Below, piece by piece: positions 5,727 through 37,744 of a stretch of 58,954 bases of DNA. Each line of letters begins with the position of its first letter. The first letter of the stretch is position 1. The notes beneath the pieces were generated by a model, which was not told the DNA's origin, made no database searches, and saw only the letters and a list, made by a program, of their open reading frames with translations. The translations under genes and the position numbers were made by a program. The stretch comes from Roseinatronobacter alkalisoli. Lineage in GTDB: Bacteria > Pseudomonadota > Alphaproteobacteria > Rhodobacterales > Rhodobacteraceae. The stretch covers positions 1 through 58,954 of the forward strand of contig NZ_JAQZSM010000024.1 of assembly GCF_028745735.1 (NCBI RefSeq), given 5' to 3'.

Positions 5727-5732
5727 GGTCGC

Positions 5733-7102: not shown

Positions 7103-7141
7103 CTATTGCTGACGTAATCTTGCCGTGAAAGGAAACCGTTC

Positions 7142-21794: not shown

Positions 21795-22735
21795 CTTGTG
21801 CGCCTTTTCAGAACAAGGGCCAGAAACAACAGGCCACCGGCGAATTCGACAATGACCGCAAGCGCGGATTGCAGACCCAGAAGCCGCTCGAACACGGCCT
21901 GTCCTGCCACAAGGATGGCCGCGCCCATCAGCGCCGCTGCCGGAATCAACACAATGTGGCGGTGGTCGCGCAGCAGCGCATGGGCAAAACTGGCCGCCAG
22001 CAACCCCAGGAATGTGACCGGCCCCACAAGGGCCGTGGACACCGCAACCAACGCCGCCACAACACCAAGTGCGGTAAACACCAACCGGTCATGGTTCAGC
22101 CCCAGAACCCGCGCCTGCACCCGCCCCAGTGCCGCAACATCCAGCCCCGGCGCAAGCCACAGCGCGGCCCCAAGCCCGCAGACCAGCGCCAATGCCGCGA
22201 TTCCCAGCAAATCAGGATTGACCGCATTGAAACTGGCAATGCTGGCTTGCTGAACCACTGCGAATTCGGACGGGTCCAGCAGACGCTGCGCAAACCCTGC
22301 CAGCCCGCGCAGCAGCACCCCCAGAATAACGCCGGTCAGGATCATGCGGATAATATCTTCCGCGCCTTTGCGGAACAATATTCCGAACAACGCCATTGCC
22401 GCACCCATCAGCAGGGACGCTTCAACCAGAAATTTTGCCGTATCCGCCAGCGCCACATAGCCTGCCCCACCCAGACCCAGCACCAGTATTGTCTGGGTAA
22501 AAACGAACAGGGCGTCAAACCCCACGATTCCCGGTGTCAGCAAACGGTTGGCGGCGATGGTCTGGAAGATGACAGTTGCCGCGCCGGTTGCCGCGCCCAC
22601 CAGCACCAGTGCCGCCAGTTTTTCCGCGCGCAGTCCCAGAATGAACCCCATCGGCGCGCGCAGATTCCAGAAAAGGAACAGCGCGCACAGCCCCAGCAGC
22701 CCCAACGACAATGCGACAAGGCGACGTTCAGCCAT
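21791..22735 (-). CDS. Siderophore ABC transporter permease (FecCD family, YclO-like)
   Basis: A 314-residue, very hydrophobic permease of the BtuC/FecCD family with about nine to ten spans. ATG 22735 was chosen: it overlaps the preceding permease stop by 8 bases and gives a normal N-terminus. It pairs with the permease at 22728-23672. The ATPase gene overlaps its end by four bases. Confidence 0.88.
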   Translation of the reverse strand: MAERRLVALSLGLLGLCALFLFWNLRAPMGFILGLRAEKLAALVLVGAATGAATVIFQTIAANRLLTPGIVGFDALFVFTQTILVLGLGGAGYVALADTAKFLVEASLLMGAAMALFGILFRKGAEDIIRMILTGVILGVLLRGLAGFAQRLLDPSEFAVVQQASIASFNAVNPDLLGIAALALVCGLGAALWLAPGLDVAALGRVQARVLGLNHDRLVFTALGVVAALVAVSTALVGPVTFLGLLAASFAHALLRDHRHIVLIPAAALMGAAILVAGQAVFERLLGLQSALAVIVEFAGGLLFLALVLKRRTR

Positions 22736-23672
22736 GATGACGCGGCTTTCTGCTGTTGAGCAGCCAAAGAAACAGCACCGCGCCAAACACTGCAAAAATG
22801 GTCGCCGCCGGAATTTCGTAGGGCCAGCGCACCACACGGCCCAGAAGATCCGCGCCCAACACAAAAACCGCCCCCAGAAACGCCACCCAGGGCAGGTTCT
22901 GGCGCAGGTTGTCCCCACGCCAGCGCGAGACGATATTGGGCACGACAAGCCCCACAAAGGGCATGGCACCGACCGTCACCACCACCACCGCAAATGTTAC
23001 AGCCACACAACCCAGCCCCAGCAACACAGTTTGCAGATAATTCAGACCAAGGGCGCGGGCGTAATCCTCGCCCAGCCCCAACAGGGTAATCCGGTCTGCC
23101 AGCACGAACAGAATGATGGCCAGACCCGCAATGATCCACAGCAGTTCATAGCGCCCGCGCAGCACGCCGGAAAACTCTCCCGTGCGCCAGATGCTCAGAA
23201 ATTGCACCAGATCCGTCATCCAGCCCAGCCACAGGACCATCGCGCCCAGAATACCGCCATAGATCAGCCCGACCAGCGGCAGAAGCATCGGGTCCCGGCG
23301 TGGCACCAGCCGCGCCAACATGAAGAACACGGCGGTTCCCGCCAGCGCCGTCAGCGCCGCAACCGACATCTTGACCGCGAGCGCGGCGCCGGGCGCAATC
23401 AGGGTAATGGCCACCAGACCCAGCATCGCAGCTTCAGGCGTGCCGATCAGGCCGGGGTCAACCAGCCTGTTCTGGACACTTTGCTGTACAACGACACCGG
23501 CCAGCGCCAAGCCCGCACCGGCCAGCAATGCCGCCAGTGTGCGCGGCACGCGGCTGATGGCCAGAACCATGCCGGTATCAAGCTGCGTCGTCCACAGATT
23601 GGTTGCACCCACCAACAGGCTTGCGCCCGCAAGCAGGACAAGCCCGGTCAGGGCAATCGGAAGCCCGCGCAA
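22728..23672 (-). CDS. Siderophore ABC transporter permease (FecCD family, YclN-like)
   Basis: A FecCD permease of about 314 residues with about nine spans, including the conserved Gly-Ala-x-Pro-Phe-Val-Gly-Leu-Val-Val-Pro-Asn block in its C-terminal third. No ATG lies at the expected N-terminus. The TTG at 23672, four bases after the binding-protein stop, gives the usual start just before the first membrane span; a longer in-frame reading would overlap the binding-protein gene by over 100 bases and adds atypical sequence. The TTG call is therefore likely but not certain. Confidence 0.8.
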   Translation of the reverse strand: MRGLPIALTGLVLLAGASLLVGATNLWTTQLDTGMVLAISRVPRTLAALLAGAGLALAGVVVQQSVQNRLVDPGLIGTPEAAMLGLVAITLIAPGAALAVKMSVAALTALAGTAVFFMLARLVPRRDPMLLPLVGLIYGGILGAMVLWLGWMTDLVQFLSIWRTGEFSGVLRGRYELLWIIAGLAIILFVLADRITLLGLGEDYARALGLNYLQTVLLGLGCVAVTFAVVVVTVGAMPFVGLVVPNIVSRWRGDNLRQNLPWVAFLGAVFVLGADLLGRVVRWPYEIPAATIFAVFGAVLFLWLLNSRKPRHHG

Positions 23673-23676
23673 CGGA

Positions 23677-24579
23677 TCAGCTGCCGGACCCTTCGAATGC
23701 TGTCCTGATCTGGTCCAGCACGATCTGTACGGACTGAATGCCCCCGCCTGCCAGATAGATGGCGCCACCATCCAGATAGATGATCTGCCCGCGCTGGCCC
23801 GCGGTTGTGCCCGCAATCAGGGGGTTGTCCAGCGTCACGGCTGCGGCCTCGCCATCCTGACCGATGGCGGCGGCACGGTCCAGAACCAGCAACCAGTCCG
23901 GGTTTACCTCTGCGATAAATTCAAACGACACCGACTCGCCGTGATTTTCTGCGGTAATCCCGTCAAATGCCTGCGGCAGCCCGACAGCGTTATGCAGCCA
24001 GCCGAAACGGCTGTCAGCACCATAGGCCGACAGCTTGCCGCCATTGGTCTGCACGATCAGCGCACTTCCCTTGCCGGTGACAGCCGCTGCGGTGCTGGCA
24101 AGCGCGTCGTCAAGCTGCGCAATCAGCGCATCTGCCGCATCCGCCTTGTCAAACAGCGCGCCATAGGCTGCCACGCGGTCGCGCGCCTGTTCGATCAGCC
24201 CATCATTCATAATTGTCATGTCAATCGTGGGTGCCACACGCGACAGTGCACCAACCTGCGCCTGCGAACGCCCGCCCGCCACAATCAGGTCCGGCCCCAT
24301 GACGGCCAGCGCTTCAAAGTCGGGTTCGAACAGGGTGCCGACGGCAGGCAGGTCCTGCATGACCCTTGCCAGATAGGCAGGTGGTGTGACGCTGGGCACG
24401 GCCGCAATCGCGACATCAAGCGCTGACAATGCGTCAATTGCGGCAAGGTCCAGCGCAACCACATTCTGCGGTCCCGCTTGCAGCGTGACCGGGCCGGCAT
24501 GGGTTTCAACAGTGACATCCTGGGCCATTCCGACGACCGGTGCCAGACAAACCGCCGCCGCGCATAGTGTAAGTTTCAT
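23677..24579 (-). CDS. Siderophore-binding protein (YclQ/FatB/VctP family)
   Basis: A 300-residue periplasmic helical-backbone (PF01497-type) binding protein. The signal peptide starts MKLTLCAAA and cleaves near Gly-Met-Ala-Gln at about 17-20. The mature N-terminus, with Asn-Val-Val-Ala-Leu-Asp and later Phe-Glu-Pro-Asp-Phe-Glu and Pro-Asp-Leu-Ile-Val-Ala-Gly-Gly-Arg, matches how I recall the YclQ/FatB group, which binds catecholate or petrobactin-like siderophores. AAGGAA is 8 bases before ATG 24579. It is the first gene of the minus-strand import operon. No TonB receptor gene is in view. Confidence 0.88.
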   Translation of the reverse strand: MKLTLCAAAVCLAPVVGMAQDVTVETHAGPVTLQAGPQNVVALDLAAIDALSALDVAIAAVPSVTPPAYLARVMQDLPAVGTLFEPDFEALAVMGPDLIVAGGRSQAQVGALSRVAPTIDMTIMNDGLIEQARDRVAAYGALFDKADAADALIAQLDDALASTAAAVTGKGSALIVQTNGGKLSAYGADSRFGWLHNAVGLPQAFDGITAENHGESVSFEFIAEVNPDWLLVLDRAAAIGQDGEAAAVTLDNPLIAGTTAGQRGQIIYLDGGAIYLAGGGIQSVQIVLDQIRTAFEGSGS

Positions 24580-24691
24580 ATCGGCATTCCTTATGCTGTA
24601 TGCTGTTTTTCGGGTTGTCTGGCGGCGGCTGGACATATCCGACTGTTTTTGTCATTCTTGTGCCGGAGCAAATAAATAAGGAATCGGGCAG

Positions 24692-25178: not shown

Positions 25179-26213
25179 CTATTCCAGAACCGTCGTCGCA
25201 AGCTTGTCCGCCCCCTCGCGGACAGGATCGGCAGCGGGTAATCCGGTCGCGTCCTCAACCGCCCTGAGCGCCGCGTCGGCATCCGCCTGCGACAGGCGCG
25301 CTGTGTTCAGGGCAATGCCGACCACGCGCGCCGGGGTCAGTGCGCCACCCGCCCGTGCCACGCCTTCATTCAGCGCAATCACGTCGCGCAGGGGCGGAAT
25401 GCGGACGGTTTTCGGTTCATCAAGCGTTTCCATTCCGGCGCGGTGGCACAGGATCATATGGGTGCAGGCGCTGCCGCGCATCAGCGGCAGGGTGGCGGTA
25501 CTGCCGGGGTGCAATAATGAGCCCTGCCCCTCGATCACGACAATCGCATGCTTTGCTGCCTCCAGAACCATACGTTCTACGGCCCCGGCTGCATGATCAA
25601 CACGGATTGCGTCCAGCGGAATGCCGCTGCCCGTAATGGCAATGCCAGTCTGGCCCGTCGCAAGGAAGGCCGCATCGCGGCCCAATGCCTGCAAGCTGCG
25701 GGTCAGTTCCAGCCCGGCTGTCATCTTACCGACGGCCATGTCAGTGCCGACCATCAGCACGCGGGTATTGCGCAACGTGGCCGCGCGCGCCATCGCGATG
25801 GGCGGCGCATCGCCTTGTGGCACACGCAAGTCCCAGACCCATTGGCCGGGGCGAAGCCTGTCGGAAAACATGGGCTTCAGCTGGTCATGCATGCCGTTGA
25901 CAAGGCTCATGCCACCCGCAACCGCCTGTTCCAGAACAACTACCCAGTCCTGCGGCAGCCGCCCTCCCGATGGTGCAGTACCCAATACAAGCACCTGCGC
26001 GCCCAGGCCCTGCGCCTCTGCCAGTGTGGCAACCACCGGCACGTCACTGTTCAGCGCGCACAGATCGCGCACGCGTTTGCCCGCCTGCGTACTGTCGATC
26101 ACCGCGACCACGGGATTACGCCCATAACGCATGATGCCTTCGGCCATCTTGGCATTCAGCTTGCCCATTGTGGCCTCTGCAAACAGTGCGAGGGGAAGGG
26201 TGGGGTCAAGCAT
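25179..26213 (-). CDS. dgcN: DgcN-family protein (DUF1611)
   Basis: A 344-residue protein of the DUF1611/DgcN family. A P-loop-like segment Gly-Thr-Asp-Met-Ala-Val-Gly-Lys-Met-Thr is at 156-165. Members are reported to act with DgcA in D-glutamate use, DgcN as N-acetyltransferase and DgcA as N-acetyl-D-glutamate racemase. ATG 26213 is preferred to an ATG five codons upstream because GGAGGA lies 7 bases before it. It overlaps the dgcA stop by 8 bases and is the last gene of the ten-gene operon 25179-34972. Here its substrate may differ from D-glutamate. Confidence 0.8.
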   Translation of the reverse strand: MLDPTLPLALFAEATMGKLNAKMAEGIMRYGRNPVVAVIDSTQAGKRVRDLCALNSDVPVVATLAEAQGLGAQVLVLGTAPSGGRLPQDWVVVLEQAVAGGMSLVNGMHDQLKPMFSDRLRPGQWVWDLRVPQGDAPPIAMARAATLRNTRVLMVGTDMAVGKMTAGLELTRSLQALGRDAAFLATGQTGIAITGSGIPLDAIRVDHAAGAVERMVLEAAKHAIVVIEGQGSLLHPGSTATLPLMRGSACTHMILCHRAGMETLDEPKTVRIPPLRDVIALNEGVARAGGALTPARVVGIALNTARLSQADADAALRAVEDATGLPAADPVREGADKLATTVLE

Positions 26214-27237
26214 GCAAGGTTCCTCCATGGCCGGGCTGGTCCGCGGGCAGGGTTACACCATCCACGAAGGGTGCGCCGGTAGCGGGATCCGGGTCAAGGT
26301 TGAGGTGGGAGTCAAGGTCGATATAATCAAATAGCGCCGAAAGTGACGCGCCCGCCGCGATGGACACAGAGCTTTCGCCCATGCAGCCGATCATGGTTTT
26401 CAACCCATGCGCGCGGGCAGTAGCAACAATGCGCAAAGCCTCGGAAATACCGCCGCATTTCATCAGCTTCAGGTTCACCCCGTCCACACAATGCGCGAAT
26501 GCGGGAATGTCACTGGAAAAGCGGCAGGATTCATCGACAAAGATTGGTAGTGCGCGATCCCTGAATAGTTCGGGCAACTGATCTTCTGCCCCCTGCACCA
26601 GCGGCTGTTCGACATACTCCACCCCGCGCGTGGCAAGCCACCCCATCATGTGGCGCGCGTCGGTCAGTGACCAGCCGCCATTGGCATCAACGCGCAGCGC
26701 CGCACCGCTGCCCTGTGCAACCTCGTGTACAGCGGCGAACATGGCCTTGTCGGCCTCAATCCCGTCATTGCTGCCCAGCTTGATCTTCAGCGCCCGCGCA
26801 CCGCGGTCCAGCAATAGCGGCACACGCTCGCGCACGACCTCAGGCGGGTTGATACCCACTGTCAGTGACGACACCACACCCCGCCGCGCCAGCCCCAACA
26901 GATGATAAAGTGGCATCCCGGCCTGTTTGGCGCGCAGATCCCACAGCGCCATGTCGAGCGCAGCCAGCGCGCAGGCCCCGACCCCGGCCTTATGCGCTGA
27001 GAACCAGATGTCGTGGATCGCCCCTTTCAGCCCCTTTGCGCAGAACCCCTCCAGCTGTGCGCGCCCTTCAGCTACGGTCGCAGCCCCTTCAGTTTTGCCA
27101 GGTGCCATCTCGCCCCAGCCTGTCAGACCATCTTCGGTGACGGAAACAAACAGGTTTTCACCACCCGGAATCTCACCGCGCGAAATCCGCAGCGGGAAGC
27201 GCTTTTTCAGGTAAATCGCGCGAAAATCGACTTTCAT
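26206..27237 (-). CDS. dgcA: DgcA/dipeptide epimerase (enolase superfamily)
   Basis: A 343-residue enolase-superfamily enzyme of the muconate-lactonizing/L-Ala-D/L-Glu epimerase branch. The acid-base lysines sit in Lys-Ile-Lys (151-153) and Asn-Leu-Lys-Leu-Met-Lys (Lys257). Metal ligands are Asp184 (Val-Asp-Ala-Asn), Glu210 (Glu-Gln-Pro) and Asp235 (Val-Asp-Glu-Ser). All catalytic positions I can identify are intact. Pairing with dgcN supports N-acyl-amino-acid racemisation over dipeptide epimerisation. It overlaps the deacetylase stop by ATGA. Confidence 0.85.
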   Translation of the reverse strand: MKVDFRAIYLKKRFPLRISRGEIPGGENLFVSVTEDGLTGWGEMAPGKTEGAATVAEGRAQLEGFCAKGLKGAIHDIWFSAHKAGVGACALAALDMALWDLRAKQAGMPLYHLLGLARRGVVSSLTVGINPPEVVRERVPLLLDRGARALKIKLGSNDGIEADKAMFAAVHEVAQGSGAALRVDANGGWSLTDARHMMGWLATRGVEYVEQPLVQGAEDQLPELFRDRALPIFVDESCRFSSDIPAFAHCVDGVNLKLMKCGGISEALRIVATARAHGLKTMIGCMGESSVSIAAGASLSALFDYIDLDSHLNLDPDPATGAPFVDGVTLPADQPGHGGTLHA

Positions 27238-28250
27238 GACATCCCTTTCAAAAACGCCGTCAGATTATCGGACAGAGCGTCCGAAACATAGCCGCCTTCC
27301 TGCACCAGCAGCAACGGCAGACCGAGTCCCGCAATAGCCCCAGCCATTGTATGAAACCCTTGGGTCGTGATTGCCAGCCCCTTGAACGGGTCGTCAATAT
27401 GCGCATCCAGCCCCAGTGCCACGACGACCACATCCGCCCCGAATGCACGTATGCGCCGCAATGCGGTGTCAAGCGCCTGCATATAGCCTGCGTCATCTGT
27501 CCCGCGCGGCAAGGGCAGGTTCAGGTTATAACCCAGCCCACGCCCTTCGCCGCGTTCCTGCGCGCCCCCCCAGAAAAACGGGTAGAAGCGGTCGGGGTCC
27601 GCATGGAGTGAAAGAGTCAGCACATCATCGCGGGCGTAGAATATGCCCTGTGTTCCATTGCCGTGATGAACATCGACATCCAGTATTGCGGGCCGCAGCC
27701 CTTGGCCGCGCAGACGTTCAGCAGCGATGGCGGAGTTGTTGAGAAAACAGAACCCCCCCGCAAGATCACAGAACGCATGATGGCCGGGTGGACGTGACAG
27801 GACATACCCCGCCCGTTCGCCACCCGCGATCAGATCAGCGCCGGTGATGGCCGATTGCGCAGACCAATAGGCGGCGTCCCATGTATGCGCACCAATGGGG
27901 CAAGCAGTGTCGGCCTGATGATAACCTGCCTGCCCGATGGCGGATTTGGGGTAATTATTACTGCGCATCGCAGGGTGGATATTCGGAATCACCTCTGCCC
28001 CGGCATCGGGGATGCGTTGCCAGCGCGGGTATATGGTTTGCAGGAAATGCAGATATTCCGCACTGTGAATGGCGGCAATCGGGCCAAGCCCTGCGTCTTC
28101 CGGCGGCTGGAACCCGCAGCCTGCGGCTTTTGCGCCTGCCATCAGGCGGGTAATGCGTTCGGGCGATTCCGGGCTTGCGTAGGTCTTGCCATTGGCCATG
28201 AAATGCTGCGGATCATGCAGGCGCTGGCGGTCGTCGAATATGGCTTTCAT
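27234..28250 (-). CDS. Acetylpolyamine amidohydrolase / HDAC-family deacetylase
   Basis: A 338-residue arginase/deacetylase-fold enzyme. The active site is complete: tandem His157-His158 in Pro-Gly-His-His, zinc ligands Asp193 and His195 in Asp-Val-Asp-Val-His-His, Asp282 in Leu-Asp-Ala-His, and Tyr321 after Glu-Gly-Gly. Numbering and the loop around 70-120 resemble bacterial acetylpolyamine amidohydrolase, which removes N-acetyl groups from acetylated polyamines and amines. It overlaps neighbours on both sides by four bases (ATGA). Its place behind a PotABCD-like importer suggests it deacetylates an imported N-acetylated amine or amino acid. Confidence 0.88.
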   Translation of the reverse strand: MKAIFDDRQRLHDPQHFMANGKTYASPESPERITRLMAGAKAAGCGFQPPEDAGLGPIAAIHSAEYLHFLQTIYPRWQRIPDAGAEVIPNIHPAMRSNNYPKSAIGQAGYHQADTACPIGAHTWDAAYWSAQSAITGADLIAGGERAGYVLSRPPGHHAFCDLAGGFCFLNNSAIAAERLRGQGLRPAILDVDVHHGNGTQGIFYARDDVLTLSLHADPDRFYPFFWGGAQERGEGRGLGYNLNLPLPRGTDDAGYMQALDTALRRIRAFGADVVVVALGLDAHIDDPFKGLAITTQGFHTMAGAIAGLGLPLLLVQEGGYVSDALSDNLTAFLKGMS

Positions 28251-28741
28251 GTTGCCCCCCTGATCAGGTCTGACATGCCAGCCGCATCAAGGCGCATTTC
28301 CTGCATTCCTGTCGCGGGTTCGAACCCGAGCCTTTTGTAAAACTGCTGTGACGCCGTGCTGTGGTCATAGACCGCAAGCTTGATCCATGTTGCGTGCCAA
28401 TACAGCGCGCCCGCGCGCGCCACCTGCGCCAGAAGCCGCGTGCCAAGCCCCTGCCCGCGTGCATTCGCGCTGATCCACAGGTCCGACACATAGACCCCCA
28501 CCGCACCGCGCACGGTAGAAAAAACAGGGCTGTAGAGTGCTGCACCAAGGGTCTGTTCCTTTTGCAGGGCAAGAAGCCCGTGCGCTGCAGGGTGTGGCCC
28601 TGTCAGCGCATCGGCAAGCGTCGCGCCGGGACAGGCGTAATCCTCGCCGATATCGGCACTCAGGAAGCGCAAGGCGGCTTCCAGACGCGCCAGATCGTTG
28701 GCATTCGCGACCTTGCGAAAGTTCATCCCGTCATCCCGCAT
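28247..28741 (-). CDS. GNAT-family N-acetyltransferase
   Basis: A 164-residue GNAT protein. The acetyl-CoA binding motif Arg-Gly-Gln-Gly-Leu-Gly-Thr-Arg-Leu is near 95-103, after a strand with Leu-Trp-Ile-Ser, and the C-terminal Tyr-Lys-Arg-Leu-Gly-Phe-Glu signature is near 139-145. ATG 28741 overlaps the BKACE stop by 11 bases; ATG 28726 is also possible. It is one of two putative N-acetyl-transfer activities in the operon, opposite the deacetylase encoded next to it. Confidence 0.85.
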   Translation of the reverse strand: MRDDGMNFRKVANANDLARLEAALRFLSADIGEDYACPGATLADALTGPHPAAHGLLALQKEQTLGAALYSPVFSTVRGAVGVYVSDLWISANARGQGLGTRLLAQVARAGALYWHATWIKLAVYDHSTASQQFYKRLGFEPATGMQEMRLDAAGMSDLIRGAT

Positions 28742-29660
28742 TGATCTGCCCCGCCCCCTTCAGCCCCAGTGTGGCGCGCACCTGATCAGGGGTCATGACG
28801 TCGCGGCCCAGACGTTCGACAATCTCGCGGATTTTCATGACCTGCTCGGCGTTGGAGCATGCAAGCCTACCGCGGGCAATGGTCAGGCTGTCTTCCAGCC
28901 CCACGCGCACATGTCCGCCCATTGCCGCAGACATGGTGATCAGCGGCATCTGGAACCGCCCCGCCGCCAGCACGGAAAACATGTATTTATCCCCGAACAA
29001 CTTGTCCGCGATGCGCTTCATATGGGTCAGATTCTCCGGGTCCGGCCCCATGCCGCCCAGCACGCCAAAAACGAACTGGATGAAATAGGGCGGTTTTATC
29101 AGGCCGCGATCTGCAAAATGGCGCAGCATGTAGAGGTGGCTCAGATCATAGCATTCGAATTCGAACCTTGCGCCGCGCTCTTGCCCCAAGCTTGTCAGAA
29201 TGCGGGCAATGTCGCGGGGGGTGTTTTTAAAAACCAGATCATCGGTATCTTCCAGAAAGGGTTTTTCCCAGTCATGCATCCAGTTGCGGTCTTTCCCCAG
29301 CATCGGATACAGCGCGAAATTCATTGTGCCCATGTTCAGCGAGGCCATTTCCGGCGCAATCGCCAAAGGCGCGGCCAGCCGGTCATCCAGCGACATGACT
29401 GCACTGCCACCCGTGGACAGGTTCAGCACCGCATCGGTCTCTCGGGCCAGGATTGGCACGAAACCGTTAAAATGCTCCAGCAAGGCAGAGGGTCGCCCCG
29501 TCACCGGGTCGCGCGCATGCAGGTGCAGGATGGAGGCGCCCGCCTGCGCGGCCTCAATGCCCTGCCGCGCGATATCTTTGCCGGTGATGGGCAGATGCGG
29601 CGACATGCTAGGCGTGTGAATGGACCCCGTAAGCGCACAGGTGATGATGATGCCCGCCAT
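28731..29660 (-). CDS. BKACE family beta-keto acid cleavage enzyme
   Basis: A 309-residue TIM-barrel enzyme of the 3-keto-5-aminohexanoate cleavage (Kce/BKACE, DUF849) family. The zinc ligands His46 and His48 lie in His-Leu-His-Ala-Arg-Asp-Pro, with a further Glu in Val-Arg-Val-Gly-Leu-Glu-Asp near 251-257. These enzymes condense a beta-keto acid with acetyl-CoA and cleave it into acetoacetate and a new acyl-CoA. ATG 29660 gives the canonical N-terminus; an upstream in-frame start would overlap the aminotransferase. Its position next to an aminotransferase suggests the beta-keto acid arises by transamination of a beta-amino acid. Confidence 0.9.
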   Translation of the reverse strand: MAGIIITCALTGSIHTPSMSPHLPITGKDIARQGIEAAQAGASILHLHARDPVTGRPSALLEHFNGFVPILARETDAVLNLSTGGSAVMSLDDRLAAPLAIAPEMASLNMGTMNFALYPMLGKDRNWMHDWEKPFLEDTDDLVFKNTPRDIARILTSLGQERGARFEFECYDLSHLYMLRHFADRGLIKPPYFIQFVFGVLGGMGPDPENLTHMKRIADKLFGDKYMFSVLAAGRFQMPLITMSAAMGGHVRVGLEDSLTIARGRLACSNAEQVMKIREIVERLGRDVMTPDQVRATLGLKGAGQINAG

Positions 29661-29664
29661 GAAC

Positions 29665-31005
29665 CTATGCCATTTCCGACAAAGCTGGTGCCAAGTCATG
29701 CGCAAGCCGGGTCAGCGCTGCATCCAACGTATCGGTAATCTCGTCCAAATGCTGCTCCGTCACAATCAGGGGCGGACAGACCATGATATGATCGCCCGCG
29801 ACCCCGTCGCGGGTCCGGCGGGAATAGACGATCAGACCCAACTCATAGGTAATATCCACCAGCCGCTGATGCGCGTTCAGCCGCGCGGGCAGCGGGGCTT
29901 TGCTGTCACGGTCGGCCATGAACTCGAACGCCAACAGCAGTCCCTTGCCCCGCACATCACCAATGATCGGGTGCCGTGTCATTAAGCTGTCAAGCCGCGT
30001 GCGCAGCGCTGCGCCCATGACTTCCGCGTTGCGCACCAGTCCCAGCCGCGCAATTTCATCAATCACAGCAGCACCAGCGGCGCAGGCCAGCGGATTACCC
30101 GCATAGGTGAAACCATGCAGGAAACCGCCCCCTTCCATAACCGCCCGCACCAGATCATCCCGGGCGACAATCGCACCCAGCGGCACATACCCTGCGGCAA
30201 ACCCCTTGGACAGCACGACGATATCAGGCGACAGGCCCCAGTGTTCCAGCGCCAGAAAGCGGCCGGTACGGCCCGCGCCTGTCATCACTTCATCAAGGAT
30301 CAGCAGCACCCCGTACCGGCGGCAGATATCCTGCACCGCTTCCATGTAGCCGACAGGCGGGACCAGCGCGCCAGTGGACGCCCCGCCGACAGGTTCCACA
30401 ACAAAGGCCAGCACCGTATCCGGCCCTTGCGCAATGATTTCGGCTTCCAGCATGGCGGCGTAATGCGCGCCGGTGGCTGGGTCGTCCGGGTCCAGCCCGT
30501 CCAGATAGGCGCGCGGCGCAGGGATTTTGGGCATTTCGCGCATCATCGGCGCGAAATGTTCTGTCAGGGGCGCGTAACCCGTGATCGCAAGCGCGCCAAG
30601 GGTGCAACCGTGATAGCTGGGGCTGCGGCTGATGATCTTCCAGCGGTTGGCTTGCCCGACGGCCAGCGCATGCTGGCGCGCCAGCTTGATCGCGGATTCC
30701 ACGGCCTCCGACCCGCCGGAAACGAAGAAGACCTTGTTCATCCCTTCGGGGCAAAGGGCGGCGGTCTTTGCCGCCAGTTCCTCGGACGCTTCGGTTTCAA
30801 AATGCAGCCGGTAGCCGAAGGTGGATTTCTCCATCTGGCGGCGCATTGCATAGAGTACGTGTTCATTCGAATGGCCGATATTGCACACCATCGCGCCGGA
30901 TGAGCCGTCCAGATAGCGCTTGCCGTCCACATCCCACATATAAACGCCACGCGCCTGATCCAGAACAGGACGACGCTGACTGGTCTGATAGAACAGATGG
31001 CTCAT
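29665..31005 (-). CDS. Class III (omega-type) aminotransferase
   Basis: A 446-residue PLP enzyme of aminotransferase class III. The phosphate-binding block Ser-Gly-Gly-Ser-Glu-Ala-Val-Glu is near 96-103, Asp238-Glu-Val contacts the cofactor, and the Schiff-base lysine is Lys267 in Leu-Ser-Lys-Gly. Members transfer amino groups that are not alpha, for example omega- or beta-amino groups. ATG 31005 starts six bases after the ATPase stop. It is four bases from the BKACE gene, so the pair probably works in sequence: transaminate, then cleave. Confidence 0.9.
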   Translation of the reverse strand: MSHLFYQTSQRRPVLDQARGVYMWDVDGKRYLDGSSGAMVCNIGHSNEHVLYAMRRQMEKSTFGYRLHFETEASEELAAKTAALCPEGMNKVFFVSGGSEAVESAIKLARQHALAVGQANRWKIISRSPSYHGCTLGALAITGYAPLTEHFAPMMREMPKIPAPRAYLDGLDPDDPATGAHYAAMLEAEIIAQGPDTVLAFVVEPVGGASTGALVPPVGYMEAVQDICRRYGVLLILDEVMTGAGRTGRFLALEHWGLSPDIVVLSKGFAAGYVPLGAIVARDDLVRAVMEGGGFLHGFTYAGNPLACAAGAAVIDEIARLGLVRNAEVMGAALRTRLDSLMTRHPIIGDVRGKGLLLAFEFMADRDSKAPLPARLNAHQRLVDITYELGLIVYSRRTRDGVAGDHIMVCPPLIVTEQHLDEITDTLDAALTRLAHDLAPALSEMA

Positions 31006-31010
31006 GGTGA

Positions 31011-32084
31011 TTATCCGGGCAGGGCCGCGCAATCCTGCGGCCGAAGTGTCATATGTACCTGCGCACCCACAGGGAAGGGGCGCTCGTCGATCATGTTGAT
31101 GGCCTGAAACTGCATCTCGCCCGCACGGACGAAATAGCGGACGGACTGGCCCTGATAATCCACGGTTTCCACAGTGGCAGGGGCGGAAAACGCGCCACCT
31201 TCGGGCGGTGTGTCCCGCAGCAGCAGTTTCTCGGCTCGGATCACCAGCTTGGCAGGGCCTTCGCCCGCCAGATGCGGGGCCCTGGAACCAGGCACGGTGA
31301 CCTTGCCAAAGACCGGCACATCCAGAACCGCCTCATCCGCACTGCGCGACAGGCAGCGCCCGTCAAGGATGTTGGACGCCCCCAGAAACCGCGCGACAAA
31401 TTCACTGGCAGGGGTGTTATAGACCGCTTCAGGTGCGCCGACCTGTTCGACGCGGCCATCACTCATGACCACGATCCGGTCGGACATCGCCAATGCCTCT
31501 GACTGGTCATGCGTCACAAACACAGTCGTCACGCCGATGCGCGCCTGAATGTTCTTCAGTTCGACGCGCATATCTTCCCGCAGATTGGCGTCGAGCGCCG
31601 AAAGCGGCTCATCCAGCAGCAACACATCTGGTTCGATCACAATGGCGCGGGCCAGCGCGATGCGCTGTTGCTGACCACCCGACAATGCCTTGGGATAACG
31701 GTTTCCGACCTGCGGCAGTTGCACCAACTCCAGCGCATCCTGCACACGCCGCGTGATCTCGGCTTTTGGCACATTGCGGTAGCGCAGCCCGAAGGCCACG
31801 TTTTCGGCAACGGTCTTGTGTGGAAATAATGCGTAATTCTGGAACACCAGCCCCAGATTGCGCTTGTGAATCGGCACGTCATTGACGCGCTTGCCGTTGA
31901 TGACAATTTCACCCTCTGTCGGGTCCAGCAGCCCGGCGATCATGCGCAGCGTCGTGGTCTTGCCGCAGCCCGAGGGGCCAAGAAGCGTGACGAAGGCACC
32001 ATCCTCGATGGTCATCGAGGTCTTTTCGACCGCCGTAAAGCTGCCGAAGCGCTTGACAATGTTATTGAGTTGAACCGAACTCAC
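31011..32084 (-). CDS. ABC transporter ATP-binding protein (PotA-like)
   Basis: A 357-residue PotA/FbpC-type ATPase. Walker A GPSGCGKTT is at 36-44, LSGGQ near 134-138, Walker B Leu-Leu-Leu-Asp-Glu-Pro about 20 residues later, and a TOBE domain fills the C-terminus. The likely start is GTG 32084, with AAGGGGG upstream. It serves the binding protein and permeases at 32141-34972. A strong hairpin with a T-run separates it from the binding-protein gene, so its expression may be lower than that of the binding protein. Confidence 0.9.
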   Translation of the reverse strand: MSSVQLNNIVKRFGSFTAVEKTSMTIEDGAFVTLLGPSGCGKTTTLRMIAGLLDPTEGEIVINGKRVNDVPIHKRNLGLVFQNYALFPHKTVAENVAFGLRYRNVPKAEITRRVQDALELVQLPQVGNRYPKALSGGQQQRIALARAIVIEPDVLLLDEPLSALDANLREDMRVELKNIQARIGVTTVFVTHDQSEALAMSDRIVVMSDGRVEQVGAPEAVYNTPASEFVARFLGASNILDGRCLSRSADEAVLDVPVFGKVTVPGSRAPHLAGEGPAKLVIRAEKLLLRDTPPEGGAFSAPATVETVDYQGQSVRYFVRAGEMQFQAINMIDERPFPVGAQVHMTLRPQDCAALPG

Positions 32085-32107
32085 GATGGTGCCCCCTTGT
32101 CAGAAAA

Positions 32108-32132
32108 CCCCGCGCCCGAAGCAGGCGCGGGG
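32108..32132 (-). terminator. Partial terminator inside operon, after binding-protein gene
   Basis: On the minus strand CCCCGCGCC pairs perfectly with GGCGCGGGG around a 7-base loop and is followed directly by TTTTC. This is the classic shape of an intrinsic terminator, 8 bases after the binding-protein stop. As the ATPase and enzyme genes follow in the same direction, it probably attenuates rather than ends transcription. Confidence 0.75.
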
Positions 32133-32140
32133 TCATGGCG

Positions 32141-33283
32141 TCAGAAGCCGCGCTGCACACGCGCGAAGGTTTCCGACCATTCGGCCTCGTTTCCGTTCCA
32201 GTAAACGGGATCGGCGAAGGTCAGCGCCTCCAGCGTGCCAGAAGGGTCATAGGCGGGCAGCGTCGGTATCTTGCTGCCCAGATCGACCTTGCTGCCATCA
32301 AGCGCCGGCGGGTAATTCTGCCCTTCGGCCACAGCGATCGAAGTTTCGGGCGCCAGCATGAAGTTCAGAAGTTCCTCGCAGGCCTCAACGGGCGATCCTT
32401 TGATCACGAACAGGCATTCCTGCCAGCCAAAGCTGTTGGGCGCATCATAATAGCCGATGTCATGGCCCTGTTCCTGCAGCGCCGCGATCCGGCCTGACCA
32501 GCCTTCGGTGACATAGATCTCTTCCTCGGCCAGCAGGCTCATCAACTCTGCCCCGGAACCCCAGTATTTCAGCGCCAGATCGCGATGGGCGCGGATGGCG
32601 TCCCATGCGGCCTCCATGTCCTGAATGTCATTCGGGCTTTGGCCGGTTTGCAGCGCCGCATACCACAGCCGCGTGCGCCAGTCGCTCCAGCCGCCGATCT
32701 TGCCCTGATATTCAGGGTCGATCAGGATGGATGCGCCTTTCTCACGGATTTCCTCGTCAGAGATATAGGCCCGGTTATAAGCCAGCCCCGTGGTGCCGTA
32801 ATTATAGGGCACAGCAGACAGATGATCTGGCGTGATGCCGCGGAACGCATTGGTCAGCGCGTCCATGACCAGTTCCATGTTCGGGATGTTTTCGATGTTC
32901 AGCGCCACATCCAGACCGAAATTCACATAGCGGGCATAGTCGAATACGCCCGAGAGATGGGCAATGTTGTATTCGCCTTCCTGACTGGAACGCACCTGCG
33001 CCAGATATTCGTCCCCGCCAGAGAATGTACCATCCACCACGTTGATGCCGGTTGCGGCCGTATAGGGGTCGAACGCATGACGACGAAACGCTTCGGATAC
33101 GACGCCGCCCCAGCCATCGAAACGCACCTGCGTGACATCCTGAGCAAATGCCATCCGCGCGAAGGGCGTCTGCACGCCGTAAGCAACACCCGCCGCGCCG
33201 ATCAGCCCCAGAAAGCTGCGCCTGTCCAGATCACCGTTGCGATAACGTTCCAGAAGTCGTTCATATCTTTTGGTATTGTCCAT
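32141..33283 (-). CDS. Tat-exported polyamine/amine-type solute-binding protein (PotD-like)
   Basis: A 380-residue PotD/PotF-class binding protein. The N-terminus carries a twin-arginine signal, Asp-Arg-Arg-Ser-Phe-Leu-Gly, near 20-26, then a hydrophobic stretch and cleavage near Ala-Phe-Ala-Gln, so it is folded before export. ATG 33283 has AAGGAG six bases upstream; an ATG two codons earlier abuts that site and is less likely. It sits between the permease pair and the ATPase. The family binds polyamines and other cationic or zwitterionic compounds. The exact ligand is unknown. Confidence 0.88.
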   Translation of the reverse strand: MDNTKRYERLLERYRNGDLDRRSFLGLIGAAGVAYGVQTPFARMAFAQDVTQVRFDGWGGVVSEAFRRHAFDPYTAATGINVVDGTFSGGDEYLAQVRSSQEGEYNIAHLSGVFDYARYVNFGLDVALNIENIPNMELVMDALTNAFRGITPDHLSAVPYNYGTTGLAYNRAYISDEEIREKGASILIDPEYQGKIGGWSDWRTRLWYAALQTGQSPNDIQDMEAAWDAIRAHRDLALKYWGSGAELMSLLAEEEIYVTEGWSGRIAALQEQGHDIGYYDAPNSFGWQECLFVIKGSPVEACEELLNFMLAPETSIAVAEGQNYPPALDGSKVDLGSKIPTLPAYDPSGTLEALTFADPVYWNGNEAEWSETFARVQRGF

Positions 33284-33320
33284 TTTCATCTCCTTGTCGG
33301 GTTTAGGATTGCCGCAGTTC

Positions 33321-34106
33321 TTACATGCCGCGTTTCATGGCGATACTGCGGACGATGGCGGCCCCCAGCAATGGCAGCCCGACCGTGATAACGATCATCA
33401 CAGTGCCGAGCGCGTTGATTTCAGGGCTGATGGAATTGCGCAGCATCGAGAAGATCTGCGTGGGCACGGTTTCCACCCCGCCGGGTTTCCAGAACAGCGT
33501 GCCGGTAATGTCATCAAAGGATATGGTAAAGGCAAAGAGGGCGCCTGCGGCCACTGCGGGCATCAGAAGCGGCAGCGTCACGGAAAAGAAGGTCTGAACG
33601 GGCGACGCACCAAGGCTGAGCGCGGCTTCTTCCACATCGCGGCGGATACTGACCAGCCGCGCCTGCACTACAAGGATGACAAACGGCAGGGTGAAAATCA
33701 CATGACCTGCCAGCAACAACGCGAAGCTTTTGCCAATGCCAAGCCAGTTCAGAAACAGCAAAAGCGCCACCGCAAGCACCACCTCTGGCACCAGAATGGG
33801 CGCAATCAGAATGGTGGTGATCAGGTTCTTGCCCGGCACATTGTAGCGCACCAGCGCAAGGCTGGCGAGAACACCAAGGGTGGTGGAGATAAGAGCCGTC
33901 AGCAGGCCAAGGATCAACGACGTGCGAAAGGCGCGCATCACTGCATCGTTGTTCCACAATGCTTCGAACCAGCGCAGGGAAACGCCGGTCATGGGAAAAC
34001 TGCCGAACTGGTTCTGGTTGAACGACAACAGAACCACGACCGCCACGGGCAGGAACATGAACAGATAGACCAGTACCGTATATGCGCGGATCGCAGCCCA
34101 ACCCAT
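33321..34106 (-). CDS. ABC transporter permease (PotC-like)
   Basis: A 261-residue PotC-type permease with about six spans and the EAA loop Val-Glu-Glu-Ala-Ala-Leu-Ser-Leu-Gly around 160-185. It overlaps the PotB-like gene by one base and precedes the binding-protein gene by 37 bases. It forms half of the import channel. Confidence 0.9.
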   Translation of the reverse strand: MGWAAIRAYTVLVYLFMFLPVAVVVLLSFNQNQFGSFPMTGVSLRWFEALWNNDAVMRAFRTSLILGLLTALISTTLGVLASLALVRYNVPGKNLITTILIAPILVPEVVLAVALLLFLNWLGIGKSFALLLAGHVIFTLPFVILVVQARLVSIRRDVEEAALSLGASPVQTFFSVTLPLLMPAVAAGALFAFTISFDDITGTLFWKPGGVETVPTQIFSMLRNSISPEINALGTVMIVITVGLPLLGAAIVRSIAMKRGM

Positions 34107-34972
34107 TATCCCAGCCCCTTCGTCAGTTGTGACATGCCAAGAAAGCGGTTGTAGACAGCCACCAAAGCGCCAAGAACCAGCAAAAGCAGCAGCGACAGCG
34201 CGGACCCCATTGGCCAGTTCAACTGCGTGATGATGGCTTCAAACACCAGATTGGCGAACATCGCATCGCGCGGCCCGCCAAGAATAAGCGGTGTGATATA
34301 GGTGCCCGCGCCCAGCACGAAACACAACAAGCCCCCTGCGGCCAGTCCGGGCAGCGATAAGGGCAAGGTCACCTGCAGGAACGACTGCCAGCGCGTGGCC
34401 CCCAGCGACGTCGCTGCATCTTCCAGATTGGTGTCGATGCCGTCAAGGCTGACATAGATGTTCAGCACCATGAAGGGCAGCAGGAAATGCACCAGCCCCA
34501 GAATGACCGTGGCTTCGTTATACAGCATCTGAATTGGCGACGAGATGACACCGGTGGACAGAAGCAGCGTATTCAGCGCACCCGAACTGCCCAGAATGTT
34601 GATCCAGCTCATCGTGCGAATAATGTAGCTGATCCAGAAAGGAAGCATCAATAACAGCAGCAATATAAGCTTGTTGCCGCTGGAGCGGGTGATGAAATAA
34701 GCCGCCGGATAGCCCAGAAGCGCGCAGAAAAACGTGGTGATCGCAGCAATCTTCAGCGTGTTGAACAATATGTAACGGTAGAACGGGTCCGTCAGGGCGC
34801 GCTGCCAGTTGTCCGGATGAAATCCCGCAATATCCGGCCCGACCGCCGAGCGCAGCCAGAAGGAATAGATCACGATGAACACCAGCGGCACAAGCAACAG
34901 CAGCGTCACCGCCCCCAGCGGGGCCGAAAGCAATATCCACGGCTGCCGCCTTTCACGGGCTTCTACAGACAT
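34106..34972 (-). CDS. ABC transporter permease (PotB-like)
   Basis: A 288-residue PotB-type permease with about six spans and the EAA loop Leu-Glu-Asp-Ala-Ala-Thr-Ser-Leu-Gly in its second half. ATG 34972 was chosen over ATG 35038 because it gives a usual short N-terminus and leaves 108 bases for the divergent promoter; neither has a strong ribosome-binding site. It is the first gene of the operon running down to dgcN. Confidence 0.85.
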   Translation of the reverse strand: MSVEARERRQPWILLSAPLGAVTLLLLVPLVFIVIYSFWLRSAVGPDIAGFHPDNWQRALTDPFYRYILFNTLKIAAITTFFCALLGYPAAYFITRSSGNKLILLLLLMLPFWISYIIRTMSWINILGSSGALNTLLLSTGVISSPIQMLYNEATVILGLVHFLLPFMVLNIYVSLDGIDTNLEDAATSLGATRWQSFLQVTLPLSLPGLAAGGLLCFVLGAGTYITPLILGGPRDAMFANLVFEAIITQLNWPMGSALSLLLLLVLGALVAVYNRFLGMSQLTKGLG

Positions 34973-35047
34973 GTCGGTAATTTGCTTGGCATAATGGCGG
35001 AACTGGGCATGGTCAAAGATTGCAAAGCCAGAACGCATAAGGCAAAT

Positions 35048-35080: not shown

Positions 35081-36079
35081 ATGCCGGAGCCACGTGACGC
35101 CGACCGCCTGACGCGGGATCTGGACTGGAACCTGCTACGCAGCTTTGTGGTGATGGCCGAAGCGCGCTCCATCACGGATGCGGCACAGCGTTTGCGGCTG
35201 ACGCAGCCCTCTGTCTCTACTGCGCTGAAAAAACTGGAGGACCGCATCGGAAAACGTCTGATCGACCGCACGCCGGGGCGCTATGAACTGACACGGGCGG
35301 GCGCGCTTCTGTATCGCGAGGCGGTCGAGATACACGGTGCCGTTCATCGGCTGTCGACCTTGATGCGCGACATGACCGACGAGGTGCGCGGCCATGTGCG
35401 TATTGCCGTGGCCAGCCATGTCGTCTGCCCATTATTCGATCAGGTTCTGGCCGAATTTCACGCCCGTCACCCGCGCGCAACCCTGTCAATATCGGTACTC
35501 GGTTCCAGTGCGGCGCTGGCCAGCGTCACGGCGCGCACGGCATCTTTCGCGATCTGTCTTGTGCACAGGCGCGATCCGAAAATCGAATACCTGCGGCTTT
35601 ATCGCGAATTCTTCGGCCTGTTCTGTGGTCCGCCTCATCCGCTTTTCGGTCGCAGGGATTTACGCCAGAAAGACCTTGCCGGACATGCCGCCGTCAGTTT
35701 CGAGACGGACAGGCTGCATGACGCGCTACGCTCGGTGACCTTGTTGCGGGCGCAATCCGAACTGAACGAACAGATCATCGGCACGTCCAGTCATCTGGAA
35801 GAAGTGCGCCGCATGGTGATCGCCGGCCTCGGGATCGGCCCCTTGCCGCTGCATGTGGTGGCGCGCGATGTCCAGGACGGGCTGCTCTGGCGTCTGCCGC
35901 CTTATGACATGCCACCAGCGATTGACGTGCATCTGGTCTGGAACCCCAAAGCAACCCTTAACCGGGCCGAAACCGCGCTTCTCGAAGCTATTCAGCACGC
36001 AATATCATTGGTTCCAATGACGGCGCGCACCTATGGGCTTTCCGCGGAGGAAGATGGCAGCGCCAGCGTCGCTGAGTAA
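35081..36079 (+). CDS. LysR-family regulator of the ten-gene operon
   Basis: A 332-residue LysR protein. The N-terminal helix-turn-helix (about 15-75) has the usual Ala-Ala-Gln-Arg-Leu then Thr-Gln-Pro-Ser-Val-Ser block, and an effector-binding domain runs to about 310. It is divergent from the PotB-like gene, so it probably activates or represses the 25179-34972 operon according to the imported substrate. It converges with choline-sulfatase, so control of that gene is possible but less direct. Confidence 0.88.
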   Translation: MPEPRDADRLTRDLDWNLLRSFVVMAEARSITDAAQRLRLTQPSVSTALKKLEDRIGKRLIDRTPGRYELTRAGALLYREAVEIHGAVHRLSTLMRDMTDEVRGHVRIAVASHVVCPLFDQVLAEFHARHPRATLSISVLGSSAALASVTARTASFAICLVHRRDPKIEYLRLYREFFGLFCGPPHPLFGRRDLRQKDLAGHAAVSFETDRLHDALRSVTLLRAQSELNEQIIGTSSHLEEVRRMVIAGLGIGPLPLHVVARDVQDGLLWRLPPYDMPPAIDVHLVWNPKATLNRAETALLEAIQHAISLVPMTARTYGLSAEEDGSASVAE

Positions 36080-36138: not shown

Positions 36139-37659
36139 TCATTCGCCACGGGGAAAACGCTTGCTGTCTTCAAGAAGATTCAGGTCCATGTGATTACGCA
36201 TGTAGCGTTCCGACGCCTTTTGCAGCGGCTGAAAATCCCAGGGGAAATACCCCCCCTGCCGCAGCGCCTCATAAACCACCCAGCGCCGCGCCTGACTTTC
36301 GCGCACCTCGGCATCAAAGCGGGACAGATCCCAACGCGCCGCCGCCTGCGCGCGCAGACCGGCCAATATGTCCTGATGCGCCGTGTCATCGGCGAGGTTG
36401 TGCAATTCCTGCGGGTCGGTTTCCAGATCGAACAGCATTTCCGGGTCCAGCGTGCAGCGGATATATTTCCAACGCCCGTCACGCAGACAGACCAGCGGTG
36501 CCTCCGACGCTTCGGCGGCATATTCCATGGCCACGGGACTGGTGCGCACGCCGCCCTGACCCAGCGGCACAAGGCTTTCGCCAGTGGTCCAGGGCATCAC
36601 CTCTGCCATACTGACGCCTGCCAGATCGCATAATGTCGGGCATACATCGATGGTGCTGACAGGCGCATCTACCCGGCCTGCCGCCATATCGGGGGCCGCA
36701 ATCATCAGCGGCACGCGGGCCGACCCCTCAAAAAAGCACATCTTGTACCACAGACCCCGTTCGCCCAGCATATCGCCATGATCGCTGACAAACACCACAA
36801 CGGCTTGCTGGCGTGTTGCCTCCAGCGTGGCCAGGATCTCGCCGATCTTGTCATCAAGATAGGAAATATTGGCGAAATAGGCGCGGCGCGCGCGAGCCAC
36901 CATTTCCGGGGTCAGATCATAGGACCGCCAGTCATTCGCATCAAAAATCCGCCTGGAATGGGGGTCTTGCTGCGCATATGGGATTGGCCCGGTTTCGGGC
37001 ATCAGATGGGCGCAATCCGCGTACAGATCCCAGTATTTTTTCCGCGCAACATAAGGGTCATGGGGATGGGTGAAACTGACCGTCAGGCACCATGGCCGAG
37101 CGTCGGCACCGCGGGCCAGATCATAGATTCTGGAAATCGCGTGATGCGCGACATCATCGTCATATTCCATCTGGTTGGTGATTTCTGCCACGCCTGCGCC
37201 CGTAACCGACCCCATGTTATGATACCACCAGTCGATCCGTTCGCCGGGTTTGCGATAATCGGGCGTCCAGCCGAAATCGGCGGGGTAGATATCGGTGGTC
37301 ATGCGTTCTTCGAACCCGTGCAACTGATCGGGGCCGACGAAATGCATCTTGCCGGACAGGCAGGTATAATACCCCGCACGCCGCAGATGATGTGCATAGG
37401 TCGGAATGCTGGACGCAAATTCAGCCGCGTTGTCATAAACCCGTGTGGCACTGGGCAACTGCCCTGACATGAAACTTGCCCGCCCCGGCGCGCATAACGG
37501 CGAGGCCGTATAGGCATTGGCGAAACGCGTGGACCGCGCCGCCAGCGCCCGAAGGTTGGGCGCGTGCAGCCAATCGACGGGACCGTCGGGAAACAGCGTG
37601 CCGTTCAGCTGATCAACCATCACGATCAGGATATTGGGCCGTGTGTCGTCGTCGTTCAT
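36139..37659 (-). CDS. betC: Choline-sulfatase
   Basis: A 506-residue type I sulfatase. Cys56 in Ser-Pro-Leu-Cys-Ala-Pro-Gly-Arg is the site converted to formylglycine. The start (Val-Asp-Gln-Leu-Asn-Gly, then Pro-Asp-Gly-Pro) and the C-terminal tail with Trp-Asp-Phe-Gln-Pro match choline-sulfatases as I recall them. It hydrolyses choline-O-sulfate to choline and sulfate in the cytoplasm, feeding betaine synthesis or sulfur supply. ATG 37659 starts at MNDDDTRP; an upstream extension is not sulfatase-like. No betA or betB is in view, so the choline-oxidising genes must lie elsewhere. Confidence 0.88.
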   Translation of the reverse strand: MNDDDTRPNILIVMVDQLNGTLFPDGPVDWLHAPNLRALAARSTRFANAYTASPLCAPGRASFMSGQLPSATRVYDNAAEFASSIPTYAHHLRRAGYYTCLSGKMHFVGPDQLHGFEERMTTDIYPADFGWTPDYRKPGERIDWWYHNMGSVTGAGVAEITNQMEYDDDVAHHAISRIYDLARGADARPWCLTVSFTHPHDPYVARKKYWDLYADCAHLMPETGPIPYAQQDPHSRRIFDANDWRSYDLTPEMVARARRAYFANISYLDDKIGEILATLEATRQQAVVVFVSDHGDMLGERGLWYKMCFFEGSARVPLMIAAPDMAAGRVDAPVSTIDVCPTLCDLAGVSMAEVMPWTTGESLVPLGQGGVRTSPVAMEYAAEASEAPLVCLRDGRWKYIRCTLDPEMLFDLETDPQELHNLADDTAHQDILAGLRAQAAARWDLSRFDAEVRESQARRWVVYEALRQGGYFPWDFQPLQKASERYMRNHMDLNLLEDSKRFPRGE

Positions 37660-37744
37660 GACGGTCCTCTTTCGGGTATTGGTGTTCCGGTCTGCCCGGC
37701 ACCGTGGTTTCGCAATGTCCCATATCCGGCGGCGACTGACGCTA

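Follow-up and report, generated by a model that had tools for sequence, protein, structure and literature searches.

A Pot-linked operon of Roseinatronobacter alkalisoli as a candidate system for the uptake and degradation of lysine isomers

A route from beta-lysine to 4-aminobutyrate (GABA) was reportedly described by Barker's group in Pseudomonas B4. L-beta-lysine is said to be converted to N6-acetyl-beta-lysine and then to 6-acetamido-3-oxohexanoate, which with acetyl-CoA gives 4-acetamidobutyryl-CoA and acetoacetate, and finally GABA. The enzymes reportedly include N6-acetyl-beta-lysine aminotransferase (EC 2.6.1.65), 4-acetamidobutyrate deacetylase (EC 3.5.1.63) and 4-acetamidobutyryl-CoA deacetylase (EC 3.5.1.51). 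To our knowledge, there are no genes known for this route. Here we describe a ten-gene operon in a 58,954-nucleotide stretch of Roseinatronobacter alkalisoli (contig NZ_JAQZSM010000024.1; hereafter the window) whose core holds one gene class each for acetylation, transamination, acetyl-CoA-dependent cleavage and deacetylation in one unit. As a further likeness to the Barker route, a thioesterase gene adjoins the corresponding genes of some relatives. The window differs in that its enzymes have no sequence link to the original proteins, homologs of DgcA and DgcN are added, and both the organism and the importer are different. An earlier, sequence-only reading of this DNA knew of no described pathway with this set of enzymes; since the acetyl-beta-lysine route has reportedly been described biochemically, that statement holds for the genes and not for the chemistry.

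Other described systems share enzyme families with the operon. In the conversion of carnitine to glycine betaine by Pseudomonas aeruginosa, a beta-keto acid cleavage enzyme (BKACE) likewise cleaves a beta-keto acid to an acyl-CoA that is then freed, with the last step assigned to DhcAB and not to a thioesterase (PMC12482172, in excerpt). In the window, by contrast, the ketone would come from an aminotransferase instead of a dehydrogenase, the BKACE is probably of the neutral-substrate type, and acetyl protection is added. The thioesterase beside one relative's module, L141 (L-numbers denote loci of relatives found by tblastn, on which all module counts rest), aligns weakly with the end of the carnitine 3-dehydrogenase model NF005716 (27 bits, cut-off 592). 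Kce, also of the BKACE family, is listed for lysine fermentation (PMC10458976, in excerpt); the window BKACE scored below the cut-off of the Kce model NF052387 (219.3 vs. 382 bits), and fermentation is the setting of the Kce system. The DgcN-DgcA pathway for D-glutamate involves the same two families as the window pair, with adjacent genes and the same racemase catalytic residues (PMC10845958, in excerpt), but the window pair forms a distinct subfamily, below both curated cut-offs and with a changed loop at residues 46-52. A search of the open-access literature, outside which most subscription papers lie, found no paper tying BKACE to beta-lysine degradation.

The operon comprises ten intact ORFs on the minus strand from 35038 to 25179, all in frame. 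Pfam and NCBIfam assigned them to a PotABCD-like importer, a class III aminotransferase, a BKACE, a GNAT acetyltransferase, a deacetylase of the histone deacetylase/acetylpolyamine amidohydrolase (HDAC/APAH) fold, and DgcA-like and DgcN-like proteins. Among the NCBIfam rows listed, only BKACE and PotA exceeded a curated cut-off. These assignments bear out the ten-gene, one-strand arrangement with overlaps and short gaps proposed in the sequence-only reading. Neighboring genes overlap by 1-41 bases, except for computed spacings of 31 bases between potC and potD and 56 bases between potD and potA. The latter had been given correctly; the former had been given as 37 bases, which would fit the second ATG of potD. 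Internal ATG codons are also present in the BKACE and aminotransferase genes, and starting there would give smaller overlaps. Catalytic residues are intact, as had been claimed: the catalytic segments of BKACE, the zinc ligands of the deacetylase, and the KxK lysines and metal ligands of DgcA are all in place.

The gene neighborhood is more than chance, because the same gene order recurs in many genomes and so is not unique to this strain; uniqueness had been named in the sequence-only reading as grounds for refutation. Core-type BKACE (at least 66% identity, counted by hand) was found in 36 of 292 Rhodobacterales genomes, including all four with window-type DgcN (at least 67% identity, own genome included). 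Some DgcN match was present in 242 of the 292 genomes; beyond those four, the matches listed were about 43% or less. A scan of a named-genome collection gave 74 loci of DgcN type, and the closest belong to Natronohydrobacter, Roseinatronobacter, Rhabdonatronobacter, Roseibaca, Roseovarius, Phycocomes or Rhodobacteraceae metagenome-assembled genomes (MAGs). Many of these isolates are, going by their names, presumably of soda-lake origin. Four of the enzymes (the aminotransferase, BKACE, GNAT and the APAH-type deacetylase) make up a module conserved in Rhodobacterales, Hyphomicrobiales and, in most cases with GNAT missing, a second class of the phylum. Other Rhodobacterales have all six enzymes together with either a Pot or a Liv importer. 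The module is also found, with no DgcA/DgcN nearby, in some genomes and on named plasmids of Phyllobacterium, Shinella, Pararhizobium and a record labelled Roseateles. In the second class the deacetylase search matched 8 of 369 genomes; two (L206, L207) carry the module without GNAT, and the other six have the deacetylase in other settings. A core-like deacetylase (57%) in one second-class genome (L205, 8639-10716) abuts a gene for a pyridoxal-dependent PALP enzyme, which again connects this deacetylase to enzymes of amino acid metabolism.

We surveyed neighbors at 76 loci, from 77 non-repeating loci picked by hand; accessory genes were sought within 9 kb by similarity to one example each. The locus that fell out, L145 on a Rhizobium sp. 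CB3171 plasmid, had no BKACE at 50%: it carries aminotransferase, GNAT and deacetylase (5729-9029) with a 133-residue hypothetical ORF in the BKACE place, and is probably a decayed module. The simple ORF picker missed or misjoined some genes (e.g., in L046, L051, L073, L092 and L207). Importers are exchanged between modules, being of the Pot, Liv or polar amino acid type; at other loci the 9 kb searched, sometimes cut short by a contig end, showed no importer. DgcA/DgcN adjoin 28 of the 76 modules, a DauA-like dehydrogenase 11, an M20 amidohydrolase with Alr 4, and an ArgE-like M20 protein 5, three of these together with the DauA-like dehydrogenase. At the remaining 31 loci none of these genes (DgcA/DgcN, DauA-like, Alr, M20) lies within range; some carry dimethylformamidase beta-subunit-like (DMFB), creatininase or thioesterase genes. 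On these counts the system has a core of four enzymes, with DgcA/DgcN as an optional addition. Twelve genomes were searched for the core because their DgcA/DgcN seemed to have no complete adjoining one. Five have the core or part of it on another contig (L051 with L188, L065 with L184, L046 with L186, L073 with L187, L092 with L189), and L066/L190 looks like a single operon split by contig ends. For L060 the match was the same locus again. The genomes of L068, L070, L107 and L067 have only 56-57% BKACE relatives, and that of L063 has no BKACE at threshold.

Two observations concern accessory genes of the module. A creatininase-family gene lies between the binding protein and the permeases of the core module's polar importer in L186 (5485-6315, Pfam) and L188 (5040-5831), and might open a lactam such as 2-pyrrolidinone. 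The DMFB-like gene lies near the module in L149, L157 and L161-L164, from Pararhizobium and possibly a Bradyrhizobium-like family.

The nearest solved chains to the window BKACE are 3e02, 3e49 and 8rio, which include BKACE15; the segments HLHARDP, FEFECYD, AAGR and VGLED align with 3e02 and 3e49, and the family model was exceeded. After loci repeating another were dropped, here and in the deacetylase counts below, a tree of 78 BKACE rows (56 core) separated core BKACEs almost completely from the others: the labels required 3 changes against 19.4 when shuffled (0 of 500), although such shuffles, like the Fisher value computed in the survey of the 76 loci, overstate significance because related sequences are not independent. 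BKACE15 acts on neutral C5-C6 keto acids, among them beta-ketohexanoate, 3,5-dioxohexanoate and 5-hydroxy-beta-ketohexanoate (PMC11961710, in excerpt). In the published grouping, G1 enzymes take neutral substrates and G5 enzymes positively charged ones (PMC4922564, in excerpt), and the window BKACE would belong to G1. On this comparison a free amine on its substrate seems unlikely; an acetylated amine would suit. The sequence-only reading is supported in its chemistry: a beta-keto acid formed by transamination and then cleaved by BKACE is what fits an intact enzyme of this family. Among other substrates considered, the beta-glutamate type was rejected because the enzyme scores best with the neutral-substrate model, and aspartate or another alpha-keto substrate was rejected on chemistry.

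The deacetylase differs from Mycoplana ramosa APAH where polyamines bind, with I105 and A116 in place of E106 and E117. We take E106 of APAH to be a polyamine-binding residue; E117 stabilizes the polyamine, and a gatekeeper residue sets charge preference (PMC5454378, in excerpt). None of the 54 core deacetylases has either glutamate, whereas the zinc site is intact in every one; 51 have F as gatekeeper and 3 have L. H92, R96 and H111 are invariant in the core enzymes, where APAH has F, T and Y; their basic side chains would be suited to an anionic product, for instance 4-acetamidobutyrate. Since 16 non-core relatives mostly lack the glutamates too (E117 in none, E106 in two), their loss marks the deacetylase clade and not the core alone.

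GNAT and M20 alternate among the 70 modules holding both aminotransferase and deacetylase. GNAT without an M20 deacylase occurs in 60, M20 without GNAT in 8, neither in 2 and both in none, as expected if some hosts take up an already acylated substrate; import of such a compound is the simplest reading for the GNAT-less hosts. Among the six loci outside the 70, L156 (7460-11469) has aminotransferase, BKACE, a weak GNAT match and then an M20 deacylase, with no HDAC-fold deacetylase; this M20 protein is perhaps an alternative deacetylase for the same route. PF13279 thioesterases adjoin modules L141, L206 and L207 and, by annotation, L146 and L147.

Based on these features, we consider it likely that the core acts on an acetyl-protected beta-amino acid by way of a ketone, BKACE cleavage and deacetylation. 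That the operon serves to import and degrade free lysine isomers, with beta-lysine as the core substrate together with an entry for a D-isomer, is a tentative proposal to which we give a little under an even chance. We infer the substrates, reaction order and regulation as follows. The importer would take up free lysine isomers. GNAT would acetylate the far amine of beta-lysine, keeping the later ketone from cyclizing, and the aminotransferase would convert the 3-amine to the ketone, giving 6-acetamido-3-oxohexanoate. BKACE would cleave this with acetyl-CoA to acetoacetate and 4-acetamidobutyryl-CoA, and thioester hydrolysis and the deacetylase would yield GABA and then succinate. In the side entry, DgcN would acetylate a D-alpha-amino acid and DgcA would invert it; this amino acid is most likely basic, with D-lysine as an example, and its L-form would pass to general metabolism. 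The operon would be controlled by the divergent LysR gene, which begins at 35081, 42 bases from potB. A homolog occupies the equivalent position beside Pot-linked modules (e.g., L037, L038, L045, L054, L057 and L088), and it is the probable regulator.

DgcA and DgcN appear to provide an entry of their own, for a D-alpha-amino acid. Neither protein reached the curated cut-off for N-acetyl-D-glutamate racemase or D-glutamate N-acetyltransferase, respectively (Table 1), and the nearest solved chains to DgcN are 2obn and then 7xrj. The own genome holds a second DgcN-family match. Window DgcA has E50 and no R49, the residue found in type I DgcA (24 rows, one of which, L066_4, is another enolase-family protein). 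Each of the 39 distinct type II rows that are alphaproteobacterial or unclassed replaces R49 by T, S, A, N or I and has E50 next to it. E50 is also present in 8 of 15 type II rows from other groups; loop 46-52 may set specificity. Other D-amino acid enzymes adjoin the same core in relatives. The L257 FAD enzyme is closest to the D-arginine dehydrogenase DauA (309.8 bits; next other chain, 53). All 11 DauA-like sequences keep R222, R305, Y53, Y249 and Q336 and differ from DauA at H48 and T50. E87, which in DauA presumably binds the basic side chain, is kept in all 8 loci with GNAT; the 3 GNAT-less loci have I, I and L at that position. For the Alr of L138 the best matches are six chains named lysine, broad-specificity or alanine racemase (286-311 bits; next, 136). 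Together with the DgcA loop, these enzymes suggest a basic D-alpha-amino acid, with D-lysine the plain candidate, and because they adjoin the same core a D-lysine-like substrate probably enters the system too.

Type II DgcA-DgcN also has other neighbors. In Gammaproteobacteria MAGs (L074 and L075, about 4-11 kb) the pair follows an Xsc-like TPP enzyme and phosphotransacetylase (PTA; Pfam, L074), with a putative alanine dehydrogenase by eye, a taurine or sulfonate setting unlike that of the window; L082 shows a similar PTA-like neighbor by eye. A hydantoinase/oxoprolinase gene (B in L073, A in L092) lies 4-6 kb upstream of DgcA-DgcN, in L073 with FAD-binding and adenine-deaminase-like ORFs between.

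Several points weigh against beta-lysine as the imported substrate and D-lysine as its companion. By chemical reasoning, DgcA cannot act on C3 of beta-lysine, because the enolase superfamily inverts only the carbon next to the carboxylate. Since, in addition, an alpha-amino acid gives no beta-keto acid, we read the operon as two separate entries for lysine isomers with a common importer. The sequence-only reading had drawn a single linear path through all the enzymes, which this limit on DgcA and its presence beside a minority of modules contradict; it had also held that N-epsilon-acetyl-beta-lysine would fit every enzyme, and while a compound of this type does fit best, DgcA is the exception. 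The DgcA/DgcN substrate may even be unrelated to lysine, because MAGs of Bacteroidetes and Gammaproteobacteria carry the type II pair with no such module, and cyanobacteria have DgcN alone. No beta-lysine-making gene was seen in the modules read, whose flanks were labelled mostly by eye, and no KamA-family aminomutase was found in the own genome (130 contigs, possibly incomplete) by a search that was positive in 9 of 14 control genomes. Synthesis of beta-lysine in the cell was therefore rejected, and it would have to be imported. Window PotD is too distant from solved proteins for its ligand to be told by that comparison: its best chains, several of them polyamine-binding proteins, score only 36-42 bits, and the PotD equivalog model gave 33.7 bits against 582, although the PotA subfamily model was exceeded. 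L156, with M20 and a weak GNAT match (37% over 97 residues), breaks the GNAT/M20 exclusion. The window operon has no thioesterase gene. For the steps after GABA, the own genome has two succinate semialdehyde dehydrogenase genes over the cut-off, but no GABA transaminase over it, only 11 weak matches with the window aminotransferase the best.

An unlikely alternative is that the operon handles both enantiomers of one diamino acid. The aminotransferase (L or S form), a DauA-type dehydrogenase with RidA (D or R form), or a racemase would all lead to a single keto acid cleaved by BKACE, the racemase or oxidase working on the same stereocenter as the aminotransferase. This would explain why three chirality-handling sets alternate beside the same core and never occur together in any of the 76 loci. 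The dehydrogenase has lost its side-chain glutamate at precisely those loci that have no GNAT, a pattern linking it to the acetylated compound. An alpha-amino acid, however, would give an alpha-keto acid, a kind of compound that BKACE does not cleave, and a center at C3 of a beta-amino acid is beyond the reach of DgcA. Moreover, no such gene lies within range at 31 loci, though five of these genomes hold DgcA/DgcN elsewhere. We consider it about equally unlikely that the operon is a chirality-blind catabolic system for lysine isomers, in which the exchangeable sets (N-acetyl racemase pair, broad racemase with deacylase, and DauA-type dehydrogenase with RidA) bring other stereoisomers of the same imported compound to a beta-lysine core. 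Such a system might include a racemase or dehydrogenase acting on a beta-amino acid, which would be the first of its kind.

Slightly less probable is that the same four-step chemistry serves a different N-acetylated beta-amino acid, for example 3,5-diaminohexanoate or a diamino acid of shorter or longer chain. Nothing in the sequence fixes chain length, and BKACE15 accepts C6 keto acids substituted at C5 (PMC11961710, in excerpt). On chemical reasoning, however, acetylation blocks five-ring closure for a 3,6-diamino and not for a 3,5-diamino acid. In addition, most of what is known of 3,5-diaminohexanoate comes from anaerobic fermentation.

The annotations, with a Pot-like importer and an APAH-type deacetylase, suggest that acetylpolyamines are taken up and degraded. 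This reading is very improbable: it was rejected on the missing glutamates of the core deacetylases, and it would also leave BKACE without a role and sit poorly with the exchange of the importer for Liv or polar types. D-glutamate use, the least probable, has the family names DgcN and DgcA in its favor and was rejected on their far sub-cut-off scores and the R49/E50 change in the loop, with the second DgcN-family match in the own genome and the lack of a role for the remaining enzymes also against it.

The features are listed in Table 1. The next downstream ORF considered ends at 24636, 542 bases from the operon. Scans gave promoter-like matches at chance level (4 vs. 3.7 expected) and terminator-like matches near it (12 vs. 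9.2). By eye, a sulfatase-like gene (36139-37758) lies upstream and siderophore-type ABC importer genes (21791-24636) downstream; in L031, genes resembling histidine use follow the operon instead of the latter.

Table 1. Positions, strand and supporting evidence for the operon genes and the divergent regulator in the window.
Feature	Position	Strand	Evidence
LysR-type regulator, divergent	35081..36079	+	Homolog at same position beside Pot-linked modules
PotB-like permease	34106..35038	-	PF00528; NF007044 193.9 bits (below cut-off 348)
PotC-like permease	33321..34106	-	PF00528; NF007047 207.8 bits (below cut-off 326)
PotD-like binding protein	32141..33289	-	PF13416; twin-arginine-like signal DRRSFLGL by eye
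PotA-like ATPase	31011..32084	-	TIGR01187 368.3 bits (above cut-off 355.6)
Class III aminotransferase, proposed N6-acetyl-beta-lysine aminotransferase	29665..31032	-	PF00202 337 bits; best NCBIfam PRK07483 452.2 (below cut-off 485)
BKACE, proposed 6-acetamido-3-oxohexanoate cleavage enzyme	28731..29705	-	PF05853 337 bits; NF053538 474.7 bits (above cut-off 430)
GNAT acetyltransferase, proposed beta-lysine N6-acetyltransferase	28247..28741	-	PF00583
HDAC/APAH-fold deacetylase, proposed 4-acetamidobutyrate(-CoA) deacetylase	27234..28250	-	PF00850; zinc ligands kept
DgcA-like enolase-superfamily racemase, type II	26206..27237	-	NF042940 188.3 bits (below cut-off 400)
DgcN-like DUF1611 protein, proposed N-acetyltransferase, type II	25179..26228	-	PF07755 and PF17396; NF041892 225.2 bits (below cut-off 480)

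The names "histone deacetylase", "DgcN" and "3-keto-5-aminohexanoate cleavage protein" may be misleading in these operons. If our proposal is right, the operon would supply candidate genes for aminotransferase, cleavage and deacetylase activities reportedly measured decades ago. With three unrelated sets of chirality-handling enzymes replacing one another beside a single core, these loci offer a direct test of how bacteria handle D- and beta-diamino acids. Many methanogens use N-epsilon-acetyl-beta-lysine as an osmolyte, and in some it is the major one above 1 M NaCl (PMC1224877, in excerpt); the pathway proposed here, if true, would show how bacteria could recycle this osmolyte of salt-adapted methanogens.

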